A DNA stretch of 52,015 nucleotides from an uncultured Eggerthellaceae bacterium (GTDB lineage Bacteria > Actinomycetota > Coriobacteriia > Coriobacteriales > Eggerthellaceae), in NCBI GenBank assembly GCA_903789415.1, contig CAIFEG010000005.1:35314-87328 (forward strand), given 5' to 3'. Numbering within the stretch: position 1 is the stretch's first letter; each line of letters begins with the position of its first letter. Of the stretch, positions 43,882 to 51,433 are shown piece by piece. Position numbers and translations under genes: made by a program. Under the pieces are notes generated by a model. That model worked only from the letters and a program-made list of their open reading frames with translations, did not search any database and was not told the DNA's origin.

Positions 43882-44625
43882 ATGCCCCAGCAGATACTGC
43901 GGGGCGCTGTCAATAACAAAGGCGGTATTACCCTTGATCCCAGAACGAAGATTTTTGTGGCATTTATCTTGGGCGTCGTCCTTTTAACCGGAGGTTACAA
44001 CGGAGGAATGGCGTGGGCACGGCCAACGCTAACCGCTATTCCCCTGGTGCTGCTGCTTTCGGTACGGAAATGGGGCGCTGCCGTGGGGTATTCACTCGCA
44101 TTTTTGGCATCGTACTTTGCTATGACCTATCTGATGCCCATCACCTCGGGACCGCTTAATTTCCTGGTCATGATCGTATTTGGCATCTTCTTGCAGTTTT
44201 TGCCATGCATCATGATGTTCTATTTCGTGTTCTCAACGACTACGGTAAGTGAATTCATGGCCGCCATGGAGCGTATGCATCTGACTGACAAGATCACCAT
44301 ACCGATGTCTGTTATGTTCCGTTTCTTCCCCACGGTCAACGAGGAATTTGGCGATATCAACGACGCAATGCGCATGCGTGGCATCTCCTTTGGTAAAGGT
44401 AACTTGGGAGCGATGATCGAATATCGCCTGGTACCAATGATGGTGTGCAGCGTTCGTATCGGCGAGGATCTCGCGGCTGCGGCTCTCACGCGCGGATTGG
44501 GCGCCCCTGTCAAACGAACTAACGTATGTTCGGTGGGATTTCATATCCAAGATCTCATTATCCTCGCCGTCTGCGCGGCTTGTCTGGTTGCGTTCGGAGA
44601 ATGGTACGTAAGTGTGCACTTCTGA
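43882..44625 (+). CDS. ecfT: ECF transporter transmembrane (T) component
   Basis: The 247-residue protein is an energy-coupling-factor T subunit: hydrophobic helices (IFVAFILGVVLLTGGYNGGM, LNFLVMIVFGIFLQFLP), then the cytoplasmic coupling helices with the two Ala/Met-Arg-Gly motifs that touch the ATPases (DAMRMRGISFGKG and AAALTRGLGAPVKR). It sits between the S gene and the double ATPase, overlapping the start of the latter by 14 bases. It acts with both to drive uptake. Confidence 0.9.
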   Translation: MPQQILRGAVNNKGGITLDPRTKIFVAFILGVVLLTGGYNGGMAWARPTLTAIPLVLLLSVRKWGAAVGYSLAFLASYFAMTYLMPITSGPLNFLVMIVFGIFLQFLPCIMMFYFVFSTTTVSEFMAAMERMHLTDKITIPMSVMFRFFPTVNEEFGDINDAMRMRGISFGKGNLGAMIEYRLVPMMVCSVRIGEDLAAAALTRGLGAPVKRTNVCSVGFHIQDLIILAVCAACLVAFGEWYVSVHF

Positions 44626-46222
44626 TCAACATAAAACGGTAGTCTCACTCAAGGACGTAACTTTCGCATATGCAGAAAGCGAGAACGGAGCGAGCATCAA
44701 AAACATCGATCTCGACATCGCAGAGGGCGAATGCGTTCTGCTTTGCGGTATGTCGGGCTGCGGCAAAACCACCGTCACTCGCTTGATCAACGGTTTGATC
44801 CCCCACTTTTACGAAGGGACACTGTCCGGAAGTGTGCACGTTGGTGATTTGGATATACCCCATATCGAGCTGTACGAGACAGCCGGCGTGGTGGGGTCAG
44901 TGTTTCAGAATCCTCGCAGTCAGTTCTTTACCGTTGACGTGACAAGTGAGATCGCCTTCGGTTGCGAGAACATCGGCCTGCCCAAAGAAACGGTGCTTGA
45001 TCGTGTTGACAAAGCTGCACGGGAACTCAACGTACAGAAACTTCTAGGTCGTGATCTTTTCGAGCTTTCCGGCGGCGAAAAGCAAAAGGTGGCCTGTGCG
45101 TCCGTGTCAGCCTTAGAGCCGAAGGTACTGGTGCTCGACGAACCCTCGTCGAATCTTGACATGACGGCTATCGCTGACCTTAGCGACCAGATAGCGCGTT
45201 GGAAGAGCCAAGGTAAAACAGTCGTGGTGGACGAGCATCGATTGTTCTACCTGAAAGGTCTGGTCGACCGAGTGATCTATCTACGCGACGGACGCATTGT
45301 CGATGAAATGACTTGGGAGGAACTGGAATCTTTCAGTGACAATGAGCGCGCGGCACTCGGCTTACGCGTTCCCGACCTCACCATGCTTTCCAGACAAATT
45401 GAGCAGAAGTATGCGCAGTCTGGCGATCGCATTCACCGTAACCGAAATCTCCGCTTGGACACTTCAATTTCCGCCAAAGGGCAGGTATCACTTCTGGGAT
45501 TATCGTTTTCCCGCGACGGAGGCGCTACGAAGATACTCGACTTGCAATCGCTTACGCTACCGCGGGGTAAAGCGACGGCGATCATCGGCCCGAACGGGGC
45601 CGGAAAGACAACCTTCGCCCGGTGTTTGTGTGGCATACAGCGAGGTGCGCGGGGTGTCATGTGGATCGACGGAACCAGCTACCGACGCCGTGCACGCCTG
45701 AAAAAGTGTTTCCAGGTGATGCAGGACGTCAATCATCAGCTGTTTACGGAGTCGGTTGAAGATGAGGTACTGCTGAGTATGGATGAGCCCGACGAGCAAC
45801 AGGCTGATGCCATACTGGACAGTTTGGGATTGTTGGAGCTTAAAGACCTCCATCCCCTATCCCTTTCGGGCGGTCAGAAGCAACGGTGTGCCATCGCATC
45901 GGCACTCGCTGCCAGACGAGAAGTAATCATCTTCGACGAACCAACCAGCGGTTTGGACCGCGCTCACATGCAACGCGTCGCCGAGAACATCCAGCAACTC
46001 GAAGAGCAGGGCAAGACGGTTCTGATCATCACTCACGATCCGGAGTTTATTCTGGCATGTTGCTCATATGTCGCTCATATCGAGGGCGGTTCGCTGGCAG
46101 AAAGTTACGCGCTCGACCACGAGGGGTACCGACGCATGCTGGCGTTTTTCATGGTGAAAGAAAAAAGGGCAGAGATTAATGCGATGGACCAAAAACATTC
46201 ACCATTATCACGCCCACTATAA
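44612..46222 (+). CDS. ECF transporter ATPase with two ABC domains
   Basis: The 536-residue protein starts at GTG 44612 inside the end of the T gene. Domain 1 (about 1-250) has CGMSGCGKTTVTRLINGL, ELSGGEKQKVACASV and VLVLDEPSSNLD; domain 2 (about 280-520) has IGPNGAGKTTFARCLCGI, SLSGGQKQRCAIASAL and IIFDEPTSGLD. ECF systems normally use two separate ATPases (A1 and A2); here they are fused, as in several MptD-type loci. The final codons overlap the SMR gene on the other strand. Confidence 0.92.
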   Translation: MCTSDQHKTVVSLKDVTFAYAESENGASIKNIDLDIAEGECVLLCGMSGCGKTTVTRLINGLIPHFYEGTLSGSVHVGDLDIPHIELYETAGVVGSVFQNPRSQFFTVDVTSEIAFGCENIGLPKETVLDRVDKAARELNVQKLLGRDLFELSGGEKQKVACASVSALEPKVLVLDEPSSNLDMTAIADLSDQIARWKSQGKTVVVDEHRLFYLKGLVDRVIYLRDGRIVDEMTWEELESFSDNERAALGLRVPDLTMLSRQIEQKYAQSGDRIHRNRNLRLDTSISAKGQVSLLGLSFSRDGGATKILDLQSLTLPRGKATAIIGPNGAGKTTFARCLCGIQRGARGVMWIDGTSYRRRARLKKCFQVMQDVNHQLFTESVEDEVLLSMDEPDEQQADAILDSLGLLELKDLHPLSLSGGQKQRCAIASALAARREVIIFDEPTSGLDRAHMQRVAENIQQLEEQGKTVLIITHDPEFILACCSYVAHIEGGSLAESYALDHEGYRRMLAFFMVKEKRAEINAMDQKHSPLSRPL

Positions 46223-46502
46223 TAAGTGCGATACCTGCAATAGCCTGCAATGAGAGCTTGTCACCAAAGAAAGCTACGGCGATTATAGAGGTAAGGACGA
46301 TCCCTACCGCGCACCAAATCGCATAGCCGACACTCAAAGGTATCGTTACAAGCGCCTTTCCCAAACAATAGAAGCAGAGAAGATACCCAACAACCATTCC
46401 AATTGATGGCCAAAGTACCGTGAAGCCGTTGGAAAGTTTCATCATAGTAGTCGCGAACACTTCACAAATTATTGCTCCGCCAAGCAGAAGATACCCGGTC
46501 AT
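46176..46502 (-). CDS. Small multidrug resistance (SMR/EmrE-type) transporter
   Basis: The 108-residue protein has four membrane helices and the key Glu in the first one (LLGGAIICEVFATTMMKLS). Helix 3 reads IPLSVGYAIWCAVGIVLTSI and helix 4 LQAIAGIALIIVGVIMVN, the EmrE/QacE pattern for proton-driven efflux of quaternary cations. It starts 2 bases after the MarR gene that precedes it, so the pair is an operon. Its last 47 bases overlap the end of the ECF ATPase gene on the plus strand. Confidence 0.92.
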   Translation of the reverse strand: MTGYLLLGGAIICEVFATTMMKLSNGFTVLWPSIGMVVGYLLCFYCLGKALVTIPLSVGYAIWCAVGIVLTSIIAVAFFGDKLSLQAIAGIALIIVGVIMVNVFGPSH

Positions 46503-46504
46503 AA

Positions 46505-46948
46505 TTAATTTCCTTTCTTAAGACTGTTTATCTGATCCTTGAATGCATCGAGATATCGTTTATTGAACTTGTTTGCTTGTGCAAGCCCTCCTCCTGCCTT
46601 CACCAAAGATGCATTTTCGACTGCTGAAAGCTTCGCTGTGAGTTTCTTTGCGCGGTTTTGACCAAGCGGAGTAAGCGCGCAGAGTTTTTCACGTCTGTCG
46701 CTTTTGGAAACTCGTACTTCGAGGAAACCATCTGTTACTGCTCTTTTAAGAATTCGGCTCATGGTTTGTTTAGGTACTCCCAAACTAGAACAGATATCGC
46801 GCTGACAAAGTCCATTAGGTGTTTCGCTCAATAGTCGCATGAGAAAGAGGTGCTGAAGATTTGTACCGCAAACTTTTGCAAACTTCTCATAGAGGCTGTT
46901 GGCTTGGAAAAACAAGCGATAATACTCATCTAATGAATTGTTTTCCAT
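46505..46948 (-). CDS. MarR family transcriptional regulator
   Basis: The 147-residue winged-helix protein has LFLMRLLSETPNGLCQRDIC, SSLGVPKQTMSRILKRAVTD, GFLEVRVSKSDRREKLCALT and PLGQNRAKKL. It heads an operon with the SMR efflux gene (2-base gap), the normal arrangement for a local repressor of a drug pump. AAAGGAGAAAG gives the ribosome binding site, and a palindrome lies just upstream. Confidence 0.92.
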   Translation of the reverse strand: MENNSLDEYYRLFFQANSLYEKFAKVCGTNLQHLFLMRLLSETPNGLCQRDICSSLGVPKQTMSRILKRAVTDGFLEVRVSKSDRREKLCALTPLGQNRAKKLTAKLSAVENASLVKAGGGLAQANKFNKRYLDAFKDQINSLKKGN

Positions 46949-47209: not shown

Positions 47210-49810
47210 TTGATTCCAAATTCTATACATGCTTTTCAAAACCCCGTCAGACGGCGACCGAGTGTACGACGTTCGATAGAGAACAACAGGGCAAAACTGC
47301 ACACTGACGATGCAAGTGCGGAAACGCACCCGCAAGCAGGTGGCGACCATACGGAAGCGAAACAGCAAGCAGACGACGGAAGCACAAGCCAATCGACAAG
47401 CAGCACTCATAAACGTTATGTAGATTCACTCGATGGACTCAGGTCAATCTGCGCCCTCGGCGTCGTTTTCTATCACATGAACCTCACGTGGTGCGAAGGC
47501 GGTCTGCTCGGAGTCACCGTTCTTTTTGTGCTTTCGGGCTACCTTGCTATGGGCGGGCTACTTAAAGAGTTCCAGCAGACCAGACGCATCTCTTGTGGCC
47601 ATTATTATCTAAAACGCATCAAGCGTCTTCTGCCAACGGCAATCGCCTACGTGGTGATCACTCTAGCTCTTTGCACGATTTTCAATCATCAACTACTGAC
47701 GAAGATGCGTCCCGACATCATCCCAGGCCTTCTGATGTTTATCAACCGGTCAAAAATCATTACGCAACAGTCCTATTTCGCCGCTGCGGGAGCTCCTTCG
47801 CCGATGACGCACTTCTGGTCGCTGGCGATTGAATTCCAGTTCTATCTCGCCTGGCCTCCGATTCTCTATCTGTGCCTGAGACATCGGGTCAAGAAAAAGA
47901 ACCTGATACGTGGGCTCGCAGTCGCGACGCTCGCCTCCGCCCTCATCATGGCACTGCTCTACGTTCCTGAAGCCGACCCGTCCCGTGCCTACTACGGAAC
48001 CGATGCCCGCGCACAGTCCTTGCTGCTCGGTTGCCTGCTTGCGCTCGTCTTCCCTTTCAATAGCTGGAGCAATACGCGCGCTCAGGATCTACCGATCAAA
48101 CGACGCATAGGTACGGAACTTTCTGCAAGCTTGGGCACCATCGCGCTCGTGGTTTTGATGGTTACAACGAACGGCTACTCTGCGTTCTCTTACTGGGGCG
48201 GCACGCTTCTCGTATCAGTGATTGCTGCGGTGGCGATCGCAGGGCTTATTCCCCAGGGCACAATCATGGCTCGCATTCTTTCGGTAAAGCCGCTCACATG
48301 GATTGGAAAACGTAGCTTCGGTATCTATATTTGGCACTATATCATCGTTGAGCTTCTGACGCCTCGAGCGAGCGTCAACCAGCCATGGTACTTGATTGTG
48401 TTCGAACTTGCCCTTACGTTCGCAGCCGCAGAGCTGAGCTATCGCCTGATTGAAGAGCCTTTCCGCAGAAATTCAATCGGTGCGGTCTTCAAGCGTGCAT
48501 TTGTGAAGGGTGGAAACGAGATCGAAAGAAGCTTCGAAAAAGCAAACACTCGTGGCTTCGAAAGAGTGCATTCAAGAAGCTTCGAAAAGAATGGGTCCTC
48601 CGAACAGAGCGAACGTATACGCTTACACGATTCTCAAACCAGTATGCCGCAACGCATCGCACTCGCCGCACGTCGCAGTTCGGTACGCTTCCCCACCACC
48701 ATCGTCACGAGCGTGGTTGTCCTCATCGCTATTATCGGACTTGTGGCGATTCCTCCCGAAGCACCGGTTGGAGAAGGCAGTGATAAGCAGCAGGTCGTGA
48801 GCGCCGCGGCCTTGAAAAAACCGCTGACCGATGGAGTCTACGATGTGATTGTCATCGGCGATTCGGTGGCCTTGGGCGCATCCGATCAACTCAACGCTGC
48901 ATTTCCTCACGGAATGGTCGACTGCGCCGTTGGTAGACAAGCAGGAGATGCCCTCGCGGTCTATCAGGGCTATGCGGATCAAGGAGCAGTTGGAAACACC
49001 GTGATCTTCTCTATCGGCACCAATGGTGCTCTTGATCAAGAGGGCCTCCAGCAAATCTATGATGCGGTGGGACCTGACAAGTCAATCTGGTTTATCAACG
49101 ATCGTGCACCCCGTTCATGGTGTGCCGCAAACAATCAGCTTTTGTCCGACTTTGCCGCGAACCACGAAAACGTTGGCGTTATCGACTGGTACGGAGATTC
49201 CGAAGGACACAATGACTGGTTCTGGGACGATGGAATCCATCTGCGCCCAGAGGCCACCCAGCAATTCGCCGATCTGGTAGTGAGCACCACAGGCTACGAA
49301 GTGCCAACCGAGGAAAACACCAATTATCAGGTAATTTTCTTGGGAGATAGCGTAAGTATTAATGCCGCTGATTCACTTTCTCAGGCATGGCCCTACGGCT
49401 TGATTGACTGTGCCGCCGGCAGAGACCCCGAAGCGGTCAGACAAGTCTGGCAGAATTACGTTGATGCGGGAACCACCGGCAGACGTGTGGTTATTGCGCT
49501 GCCGTCTGACGTTCCGCTTTCTCAAGATCGGGTGGATCTGCTGCTCGACACGATCGGCAGCGATGTTGAGGTTTGGCTCGTCAATGCCAATGAGAGCAGT
49601 AGCTTTACCGTTGCGAACAACCAGATGCTCTCTGATGCTGCAGCCGTGCGAAGCAACGTTCATGTCATCGACTGGAATGAAGCGTCGGCGGGACATCCTG
49701 AATATCTGACCGATGACGGAAAGAGCCTCACCGATGCAGGAGTCCAGGTTTACAGCAAGCTCATCGTCGATTCTGTAGGAAACATAGAATCAGATAACGC
49801 AAGCAGCTAG
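47210..49810 (+). CDS. OatA-like membrane acyltransferase with two SGNH domains
   Basis: The 866-residue protein starts at TTG 47210 behind GGAGGG. A polar region of ~65 residues comes first. Then an acyltransferase-3 domain (YVDSLDGLRSICALGVVFYH, FFVLSGY-like VLFVLSGYL, KRIKRLLP, FWSLAIEFQFYLAWPPILY, GKRSFGIYIWHY) of about ten helices. A linker contains three copies of an eight-residue unit (SFEKANTR, GFERVHSR, SFEKNG). One more membrane helix (IVTSVVVLIAIIGLVAIPP) follows, then a first SGNH domain (IVIGDSVALGA, IGTNG, DDGIHLRPEA) and a second (FLGDSVSINAAD) whose final motif reads DDGKSLTDAG, without the catalytic His. O-acetylation of peptidoglycan or a surface glycan is likely. Confidence 0.9.
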   Translation: MIPNSIHAFQNPVRRRPSVRRSIENNRAKLHTDDASAETHPQAGGDHTEAKQQADDGSTSQSTSSTHKRYVDSLDGLRSICALGVVFYHMNLTWCEGGLLGVTVLFVLSGYLAMGGLLKEFQQTRRISCGHYYLKRIKRLLPTAIAYVVITLALCTIFNHQLLTKMRPDIIPGLLMFINRSKIITQQSYFAAAGAPSPMTHFWSLAIEFQFYLAWPPILYLCLRHRVKKKNLIRGLAVATLASALIMALLYVPEADPSRAYYGTDARAQSLLLGCLLALVFPFNSWSNTRAQDLPIKRRIGTELSASLGTIALVVLMVTTNGYSAFSYWGGTLLVSVIAAVAIAGLIPQGTIMARILSVKPLTWIGKRSFGIYIWHYIIVELLTPRASVNQPWYLIVFELALTFAAAELSYRLIEEPFRRNSIGAVFKRAFVKGGNEIERSFEKANTRGFERVHSRSFEKNGSSEQSERIRLHDSQTSMPQRIALAARRSSVRFPTTIVTSVVVLIAIIGLVAIPPEAPVGEGSDKQQVVSAAALKKPLTDGVYDVIVIGDSVALGASDQLNAAFPHGMVDCAVGRQAGDALAVYQGYADQGAVGNTVIFSIGTNGALDQEGLQQIYDAVGPDKSIWFINDRAPRSWCAANNQLLSDFAANHENVGVIDWYGDSEGHNDWFWDDGIHLRPEATQQFADLVVSTTGYEVPTEENTNYQVIFLGDSVSINAADSLSQAWPYGLIDCAAGRDPEAVRQVWQNYVDAGTTGRRVVIALPSDVPLSQDRVDLLLDTIGSDVEVWLVNANESSSFTVANNQMLSDAAAVRSNVHVIDWNEASAGHPEYLTDDGKSLTDAGVQVYSKLIVDSVGNIESDNASS

Positions 49811-49864: not shown

Positions 49865-51265
49865 TCAATTTGTGTGTTTGTGGCCAATGAATATACCCAA
49901 CATACAGATAAGTGCGATCACGGAGAGTCCTAGCAGTACTCCTAAAGCAGATTGCGTGCCAAAAAGCGTGCCCGCGACAAGGTCCGCATTTATCTCTTGT
50001 GCGCTATTCACCACGCTCGTAGCAACTGCCGTTCCCAATGCGCCACCAAGTTGCTGGAAAGTCTGAAATACGGCGTTGCCATCGGTTTTCGAGTCGTTCG
50101 GCAGATATGACAGTCCGTTCGTCATGCTGTTCGCCATTGAAAATCCCTGAGAGATAGGAATGAGCACATACACCAGCGCAATCAGCCATGCGCGGTCGCC
50201 GAAACCGAATACCCAGAAATACAGCATCGCTACAAGCTGGACGATGGCTCCAAATAGCAATGGTCGCTTTGAGCCCATCCGATCCAAAATGCGACCACCC
50301 AAAGGGGCCAAAATAGCGCCGACAATGCAGCCGGGAACCAACAGGCAGCCGGCATCGAACTCAGAAAGGTTGAGAACTACCTGGCCGTAATACGGTATTA
50401 GGTACCCGAGCGCGAGCACGATCATCTGCATCAGCACAACGTAGAAGCTGCTCAAGGTAAACTTCCGTGTGCGGAATATACCAATATGGATAAGCGGCTG
50501 CGATGATTTTTCGGACAGAAAGCAGAACGCAATCAAACAAACTATGCAGGCGGCAAGCAGACCGAGCACCTGAATACTGGCCCATCCCGCCGTACTTGCC
50601 GAAGACATTGCAAAAACTAAGCAGAAGAACGAAGCGGATAACAAAAGAAACTGAGGCACATCAAAATGTGTTCTTGTAATTGCTGATGATTGGCGAATCG
50701 CCCAGACGCCTAAGATGAATGCAAGAATCAGAAATGGCAGCAGCACGATGAAAATCATTCGCCATCCCCATATACCTATGACAAAACCGCCGAACGATGG
50801 ACCGACTGCAGGAGCTATGGCCGTGATCAGCGTCCCAAGTCCCATCATGAAGCCGATGCGTTTAAGGGGTGCCTGCTCAATAATGATATTGAACATCAAT
50901 GGCAGCGCCACACCGGTTCCAATGGCCTGCACCACCCGGCCCACAATAATGAAGCTAAATTCCGGTGCCGCTGCACAAATAACCGTGCCTGCGATAAAGA
51001 GGCAGATCGCAACGATGAACAGGGATTTCATGCGGAATCTTCGCTTAAGGAACGCGGAGATCGGAACGATACAAGTGAGTACCAGAAGGTATGCCGTAGT
51101 TACCCATTGAACCGTGGCGGTATCGATTGAAAACTCGCGCATCAGAGCAGGAAACGCCACATTCATGGCTGTCTCCACCACCACGCCGGCAAATGACATA
51201 ATTCCACAAGCCAAGATTGATGCTACGAGTTTCGTATCAAGAACGCGTTCGTTGTCGTCTAACAA
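49865..51265 (-). CDS. MFS transporter of the DHA2 (EmrB/QacA) family
   Basis: About 466 residues with 14 hydrophobic segments. A TTG at 51265 is preferred: AAAGGA lies five bases upstream and the next residues (LDDNERVLDTKLVASILACG) match the family start. A longer frame to 51424 adds 53 residues without a ribosome binding site. Motifs: WVTTAYLLVL, motif A-like FLKRRFRMKSLF, the antiporter motif LGTLITAIAPAVGPSFGGFV, and motif GGRILDRMGSKRPLL in the second half. DHA2 members expel drugs or other organic compounds by proton antiport. No regulator adjoins it, and the substrate is unknown. Confidence 0.9.
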   Translation of the reverse strand: MLDDNERVLDTKLVASILACGIMSFAGVVVETAMNVAFPALMREFSIDTATVQWVTTAYLLVLTCIVPISAFLKRRFRMKSLFIVAICLFIAGTVICAAAPEFSFIIVGRVVQAIGTGVALPLMFNIIIEQAPLKRIGFMMGLGTLITAIAPAVGPSFGGFVIGIWGWRMIFIVLLPFLILAFILGVWAIRQSSAITRTHFDVPQFLLLSASFFCLVFAMSSASTAGWASIQVLGLLAACIVCLIAFCFLSEKSSQPLIHIGIFRTRKFTLSSFYVVLMQMIVLALGYLIPYYGQVVLNLSEFDAGCLLVPGCIVGAILAPLGGRILDRMGSKRPLLFGAIVQLVAMLYFWVFGFGDRAWLIALVYVLIPISQGFSMANSMTNGLSYLPNDSKTDGNAVFQTFQQLGGALGTAVATSVVNSAQEINADLVAGTLFGTQSALGVLLGLSVIALICMLGIFIGHKHTN

Positions 51266-51433
51266 CAATTTCCTTTCTTTTGCTTTCAGAGTTTCCTTAT
51301 GAGTTTCCCTACGAAATAGATCTTGCCCATGCAGACCAAACCGCTTGCATGCAAGGTTAAGTAATTTTGGTATTACGTCAAAGACAAGTGTATATATCGG
51401 TTGCATAACCAATACGGTCTTCACAAGGAATAT

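Follow-up and report, generated by a model that had tools for sequence, protein, structure and literature searches.

Proteins of the AT3 family include AT3-only forms, AT3-SGNH proteins, which are the commonest fusion, and fusions with racemases, which come next (PMC9558356). For the AT3-SGNH enzyme OatA, it has been proposed that the acetyl group is moved across the membrane by the N-terminal domain and then passed through a Ser-acetyl intermediate to the C6 hydroxyl of N-acetylmuramic acid (MurNAc) (PMC5697884). In the S. pneumoniae enzyme (SpOatA), the S438A and H571A variants have no detectable transferase activity, the replacement of Asp568 with Asn leaves minimal activity, and the N491A variant loses transferase activity with 45% of the hydrolase activity left; the cleft of this enzyme is shallow and has no aromatic residues (PMC5697884). 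The DNA analysed here, referred to as the window, is a stretch of 52,015 nucleotides from an uncultured Eggerthellaceae bacterium of the order Coriobacteriales (assembly GCA_903789415.1, contig CAIFEG010000005.1, positions 35,314 to 87,328 of the forward strand). It encodes an OatA-like protein in which a complete SGNH domain (d1) is followed by a second, disarmed SGNH-fold domain (d2). AT3-SGNH acyltransferases that have retained a pseudo-SGNH domain form a real and conserved variant of a familiar type of enzyme, and a search of open-licence papers found no description of it.

The window protein shares the AT3 domain, the extra helix and an SGNH domain with GDSV, GxN and DxxH with the peptidoglycan O-acetyltransferase OatA (S. 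aureus 6vjp and 6wn9, S. pneumoniae 5ufy and 5ug1), but behind the catalytic domain it has another SGNH-fold domain, in which Asn and His are missing. A single SGNH domain is usual for described AT3-SGNH proteins rather than strictly defining; the other features of the group, namely AT3, an extra (11th) helix ahead of the SGNH domain, predicted here by a simple scan, and a complete SGNH domain, are all present in the window protein. The O-antigen acetyltransferases OafA and OafB also have the AT3-SGNH plan, and their SGNH extension (SGNHext) influences acceptor choice (PMC7448272); however, this extra part lies between transmembrane helix 11 and the SGNH domain, and no SGNH domain is duplicated. 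Two separate SGNH proteins occur in the AlgJ/AlgX system and in a bacterial cellulose operon (PMC10302187). The nearest functional precedent is AlgX, where a catalytic SGNH-type domain precedes a C-terminal domain assigned to glycan binding (PMC9487903). The second domain of AlgX is, however, a carbohydrate-binding module and not a degenerate SGNH copy. AlgX is not known to have an AT3 domain. Reuse of the SGNH fold without catalysis is known from the OSK domain of Oskar, an unrelated germ-plasm protein of animals.

The available text of the AT3 review (PMC9558356) does not mention a tandem or second SGNH domain. The same applies to the available parts of PMC7448272, PMC9833829 and PMC12423673, and those of the SGNH review PMC9487903 mention neither a tandem nor a duplication. 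In the open-licence papers that speak of SGNH, OatA and acyltransferases as well as of something in tandem, the word "tandem" refers to an expression tag, an assay, gene paralogues or mass spectrometry. No open-licence paper searched contains the phrase "two SGNH domains", and open-licence literature searches for SGNH pseudoenzymes, inactive SGNH domains in O-acetylation and O-acetyltransferases with SGNH domains in Coriobacteria yielded no description of the arrangement in titles or the starts of abstracts. This agrees with the preliminary description of the window, which did not recognise the arrangement from described OatA proteins. The features of the gene are as follows (the tandem set of 41 is defined below):

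47210..49810, + strand: whole gene, AT3-SGNH-pseudoSGNH protein of 866 amino acids (translation of the open reading frame, ORF)
47423..48427, + strand: AT3 (Acyl_transf_3) membrane domain, residues 72-406 (Pfam PF01757, E 1.3e-28)
48695..48751, + strand: predicted extra transmembrane helix, residues 496-514 (mean hydropathy 2.71)
48842..49285, + strand: SGNH domain 1 (d1), residues 545-692 (family profile and residue alignment)
49286..49327, + strand: 14-residue linker between d1 and d2, consensus GYExPxxxNTxY (alignment of tandem ORFs)
49328..49771, + strand: SGNH-fold domain 2 (d2), pseudo-SGNH, residues 707-854 (family profile, alignment and predicted fold)
49349..49351, + strand: codon of S714, counterpart of the nucleophile (alignment; Ser in just 3 of 41 d2)
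49508..49510, + strand: codon of D767, which replaces the oxyanion Asn (alignment)
49724..49726, + strand: codon of S839, which replaces the catalytic His (alignment)

The catalytic set of d1 is complete (S552, N605, D674 and H677), with blocks reading GDSV, CAVGRQ, GTNG and DDGIHL. The d2 counterparts are GDSV, CAAGRD, PSDV and DDGKSL; S714 and D836 are retained, the oxyanion Asn has become D767 and the catalytic His has become S839. The d2 domain has the (predicted) fold and the block I Ser of a catalytic SGNH domain and lacks the block III Asn and the block V His. Given the SpOatA mutant data and the residues present or changed in each domain, d1 should work as a transferase and d2 should not, and d2 of the window protein is very probably a pseudoenzyme. 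The preliminary description had placed two SGNH domains at 48840-49780 and had noted that the second keeps the Ser block and has DDGKSL instead of DDGIHL, without the catalytic His; the alignment bears out both points. However, the loss is double, since the oxyanion Asn has gone together with the His, and the changed motif reads differently from the LPSD first given for GTNG: LPSD aligns with IGTN, so that PSDV replaces GTNG.

The two domains of the window protein are 37% identical, and a profile built from relatives matches d1 at ~1e-61 and d2 at ~1e-50, so their resemblance is not due to chance. By sequence, d1 matches S. aureus OatA 6vjp (9e-24). The structure of d2 was predicted from a seven-sequence alignment comprising window d2, window d1 and rows from L061 to L065. 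The model has a predicted local distance difference test score (pLDDT) of 87.2 and a predicted template modelling score (pTM) of 0.84. Among solved structures, the model is closest to the catalytic domain of S. aureus OatA (6vjp and 6wn9, template modelling score 0.81-0.83 by query length, 32-34% identity), followed by S. pneumoniae OatA. Structure prediction, which had been suggested as a check, gives an SGNH fold for both domains.

A profile search found an SGNH match in 263 of 395 genomes of the window's order. Tandem loci were taken from those listed matches that lie in a long frame or in a genome with at least two matches, and the tandem counts are lower bounds: at least 39 distinct tandem ORFs were found, from at least 36 genomes in three families of the order (f1, f2 and f4). 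The tandem set of 41 ORFs consists of these 39 and two loci from metagenome-assembled genomes (MAGs) of Bacilli, L061 and L062. Ser, Asn, Asp and His are retained in d1 of all 41 ORFs and in all 67 single-SGNH domains of the comparison set. In d2, Ser is retained in three ORFs (window, L133b and L140), Asn in one (L095), Asp in 35 and His in 18, with two gaps each at the Asp and His positions, and no d2 has Ser, Asn and His together. In L140_d2, Ser, Asp and His are present and only Asn is missing. The Asn position is occupied by Glu or Asp in 28 of 41 d2, and ten different residues (T, D, A, V, G, S, I, L, K and E) stand at the Ser position. The d2 domain is full-length in 39 of the 41 ORFs. 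An assembly artefact or a recent tandem copy was considered and ruled out by the 37% identity of the two domains and the occurrence of the arrangement in at least 36 of the order's genomes.

Among the matches listed for an even sample of 346 genomes from elsewhere in the phylum, the window's own pair was the only one within a single ORF. In some genomes (G717 contigs C129, C201 and C270, G626 contig C21 and G683 contig C2), a long-frame SGNH match has a second match within ~1 kb in a different frame; these neighbouring frames may be the two-gene equivalent of the fusion. The tandem proteins of genus g102 (L137-L146) carry tails of 73-121 residues after d2, which in L138 and L141 contain much Ser, Asp and Glu. 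Three single-SGNH proteins (L115, L116 and L117) have open frames of 951-1073 residues, with a much longer part ahead of the SGNH domain.

Conservation was tabulated for 33 of the 41 tandem ORFs (without L061, L062, L098, L100, L101, L130, L139 and L146), and residue tallies were made on all 41. Of the 148 columns that can be compared, both domains are conserved at 65, only d1 at 35 and only d2 at 6. The Ser column shows the greatest loss of conservation from d1 to d2 (rank 1 of 148), and the columns of His (rank 4) and Asn (rank 8) are also among those with the largest losses. No such loss is seen at the Arg of block II, which is present in 39 of 41 d2, and at A735, G737 and position 799 conservation is stronger in d2 than in d1. 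Position 799 is aromatic (Trp, Phe or Tyr) in 33/33 d2, Trp being the commonest (22/33). The linker is also kept: it is 14 residues long in 38 of the 39 tandem ORFs of the order, with the first Tyr in 38/38, Pro in 34/38 and the second Tyr in 37/38.

The ratio of nonsynonymous to synonymous substitution rates (dN/dS) was calculated for 40 tandem pairs with a d1 identity of 0.70 to 0.998, many of which have saturated dS and share rows. For d2, dN/dS was 0.07-0.46 in 37 of the 40 pairs (those computable) and 0.08-0.45 in nine overlapping pairs with d2 dS below 1. By these ratios, d2 is under purifying selection in the order. Decay of d2 is argued against by the dN/dS values and the full-length conservation; a d2 absent from all relatives and decaying was looked for and not found, as d2 is present in many relatives with low dN/dS. 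The conserved pattern, the single clade described below, the linker and the purifying selection indicate that d2 is a retained pseudo-SGNH module and not a product of decay.

The descent of the domains was studied with several trees. In a tree of 139 SGNH domains, 34 d2 rows (33 from the order and L061) split off as one side with support 99/99 and in all 200 bootstrap trees. The incomplete or split L098_d2, L130_d2, L100_d2 and L101_d2 and both domains of the near-copies L062, L139 and L146 were excluded from this tree. For the trees with Bacilli rows, 24 tandem ORFs were chosen from the order and combined with 12 single-domain rows and 19 ORFs of Bacilli. In the careful tree of this set, the 24 d2 domains of the order form a clade (100/99) adjoining the d1 domains of the order, its exact place being weakly supported. 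Judged from the trees, the d2 domains of the order are of common descent. Window d2 pairs with d2 of L106, from genome G225 of another family of the order (100/96), and the placement of window d1 is not resolved in the tree. The window AT3 domain likewise pairs with that of L106 (Shimodaira–Hasegawa-like approximate likelihood ratio test, SH-aLRT, 99). The pairing of both parts with G225 hints at a transfer between families.

The AT3 tree (quick, with SH-aLRT support only) included 38 of the 39 tandem ORFs of the order and 6 Bacilli rows; L147 was left out because the AT3 part in its frame is too short. The tandem frame of L147 (G206) has just 620 residues, and the gene may be cut or shifted. 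In this tree, one clade (99) holds 33 of the 38 tandem proteins of the order, and the AT3 domains of the other five (G118, G119, G158, G163 and G164) sit within a clade holding single-SGNH proteins. As d1 and d2 of the same five proteins group with d1 and d2 of other tandem proteins, recombination has taken place between the AT3 domain and the d1-d2 pair, and the pair has stayed together.

The arrangement is also found in a family of Bacilli, that of the L061 genome, in which 21 of 145 genomes have a match and 19 of the 21 have a tandem; the matches in G495 and G447 stop at about residue 583. The Bacilli set comprises 20 tandem ORFs, 19 from this family and L160 from a second MAG; L061 and L062 reappear in it as L159 and L160. 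The tandem genes L061 and L062 are 99% identical and come from two differently titled MAGs. The d1 domains read GDS, GxN and DxxH in 20/20. The residues of d2 were read after it had been re-aligned with d1 using three MAFFT modes. Of the 20 d2, 15 have Asp at the Ser position, 4 have Glu and 1 (L164) has Ser, and the Asn position holds Ser in 11, Asn in 4, Thr in 3, Leu in 1 and Lys in 1. All 20 d2 have an acid (Asp or Glu) instead of the Gly in GxN, and all 20 retain the block V Asp and His. Ser, Asn and His never occur together (0/20), as the four d2 with Asn have no Ser and L164_d2, which retains Ser, Asp and His, has no Asn. By the residues read, a second phylum, represented by these Bacilli, has a live inner and a disarmed outer copy too, with a different set of losses. 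The acids at the Ser and Gly positions could, with the Asp and His, form a small acidic or metal site. Neither the 41 tandem ORFs nor the 20 Bacilli ORFs include a homologue whose d2 is fully equipped, and the idea of a non-catalytic second copy is well supported.

The free trees (quick, and careful in all 200 bootstrap trees) keep the d2 domains of the order and of Bacilli apart, a result made unsafe by long branches. A tree with all d2 together has a log-likelihood 39 units above the quick free tree (p = 0.88 in the approximately unbiased test, p-AU) and ~21 units above the careful free tree, and is unsafe for the same reason. In one scenario, which we regard as unlikely, a duplicate of the catalytic domain became a built-in acceptor-holding module through the loss of Ser, Asn and/or His, independently in the order and in the Bacilli family, and in the order the pair moves between AT3 domains.

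The mechanism that we prefer, with confidence just short of even, is that the inner d1 is the catalyst and the outer d2 is a retained pseudoenzyme that binds the acceptor glycan. By analogy with OatA, the acyl group that AT3 would carry across the membrane is probably acetyl, and Ser552 in d1 would hand it to a hydroxyl of a cell-wall or surface glycan. The acceptor could be peptidoglycan MurNAc, as for OatA, or another surface glycan. The remnant of the d2 cleft (block II Arg, the Arg/aromatic motif and the block V Asp) would hold the acceptor beside d1, so that d2 would be a home-made carbohydrate-binding module with its OatA-like fold retained. The Glu or Asp usually found in place of the d2 Asn in the order would abolish acyl-enzyme chemistry yet leave a group for hydrogen bonding to sugar. 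The original proposal of a substrate-binding or regulatory copy stands as far as the copy is non-catalytic, while its role is a matter of interpretation.

Glycan binding by d2 is predicted from the conservation of its cleft. Several observations weigh against this mechanism. The cleft of window d2 is itself off consensus, with N794 where 29/33 d2 have Arg and F799 where 22/33 have Trp, and the acceptor-holding role is weaker for the window copy because N794 replaces the usual Arg. An acid at the Asn position is not general, as in Bacilli d2 the acid sits at the Gly of GxN. The L140_d2 and L164_d2 domains, with Ser, Asp and His, may retain some (esterase) activity, and not every d2 is certainly dead. 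Two d2 are incomplete, as L098_d2 runs into unread letters and L130_d2 apparently shifts frame. In most pairs, d2 evolves faster than d1, which is compatible with a looser structural role, and the sole dN/dS pair that includes window d2 (against L131) gives 0.20 with saturated dS. An AlphaFold model of the tandem (pLDDT 81.8) gives both folds, and its pTM of 0.55 leaves the placement of d1 relative to d2 unreliable. Finally, the neighbours of the window gene are transporters and a regulator, with no glycan genes.

A purely structural d2, which packs on d1 or on a second copy in a dimer, or stabilises the outer part of the protein with the old active site unused, is possible but rather doubtful. 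The near-constant, strongly conserved linker suggests a set domain geometry and the ten residue types at the Ser position are expected of an unused site, but such a cleft would need neither the block II Arg nor the conserved A735, G737 and aromatic residue 799, although these could also be structural. Less probable again is a regulatory d2 that covers or opens the d1 cleft or senses a product, timing acyl transfer. It is common for a pseudoenzyme copy to regulate the active domain that it accompanies. In OafB, the SGNH extension partly covers the active site and affects acceptor specificity (PMC7448272); the unreliable interdomain model, on the other hand, speaks against the regulatory reading.

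It is very unlikely that d2 is still catalytic with unusual residues, performing slow ester hydrolysis or relaying the acyl group with d1, like AlgJ and AlgX, for which serial action in the acetylation of alginate has been proposed (PMC10302187). Such a role is consistent with the GDSV and Asp of window d2, the residue sets of L140_d2 and L164_d2, the Asp and His of all Bacilli d2 and the hydrolysis by the Asn-less SpOatA variant (PMC5697884). However, Ser is absent from 38 of 41 d2 and 19 of 20 Bacilli d2, and window d2 lacks the His without which SpOatA (H571A) shows no detectable transferase activity. Although most pairs show faster evolution of d2 than of d1 and the L130 and L098 copies are incomplete, a relic on its way out is highly improbable with dN/dS of at most 0.46 in 37 of 40 pairs, a full-length d2 in 39 of 41 ORFs and one clade common to three families of the order. 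The preferred reading of d2 as a ligand holder fits the lost catalysis and the retained fold, linker and cleft parts better than a relic does.

The window ORF starts with TTG, shortly downstream of GGAGGG, and the next in-frame start is codon 90, within the AT3 match. This match scores 100.4 bits against a cut-off of 31 (Pfam PF01757). In a simple hydropathy scan, segment 496-514, between AT3 and d1, is the top peak in the whole protein; a helix here would put the SGNH domains outside the cell, as in AT3-SGNH proteins (PMC9558356). Only 12 residues follow d2. Pfam gives below-cut-off GDSL matches in d1 and none in d2, and the only NCBIfam match of the gene is SucT, far below the cut-off.

The gene is flanked by genes for an EmrE-like small multidrug resistance (SMR) transporter and a MarR-like regulator (window 46176-46948) and for an EmrB-family major facilitator superfamily (MFS) transporter (49865-51424), all on the minus strand. 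Upstream (window 43882-46222) are a CbiQ-like T component of an energy-coupling factor (ECF) transporter and, from sequence reading, an ORF with two ATP-binding cassette (ABC) ATPase modules.

As Pfam reports neither SGNH domain above the cut-off, automatic annotation can miss or miscount SGNH domains in proteins of this kind. How AT3-SGNH enzymes choose and hold their acceptors is poorly understood, and a pair of live and disarmed domains offers a direct handle on this question.

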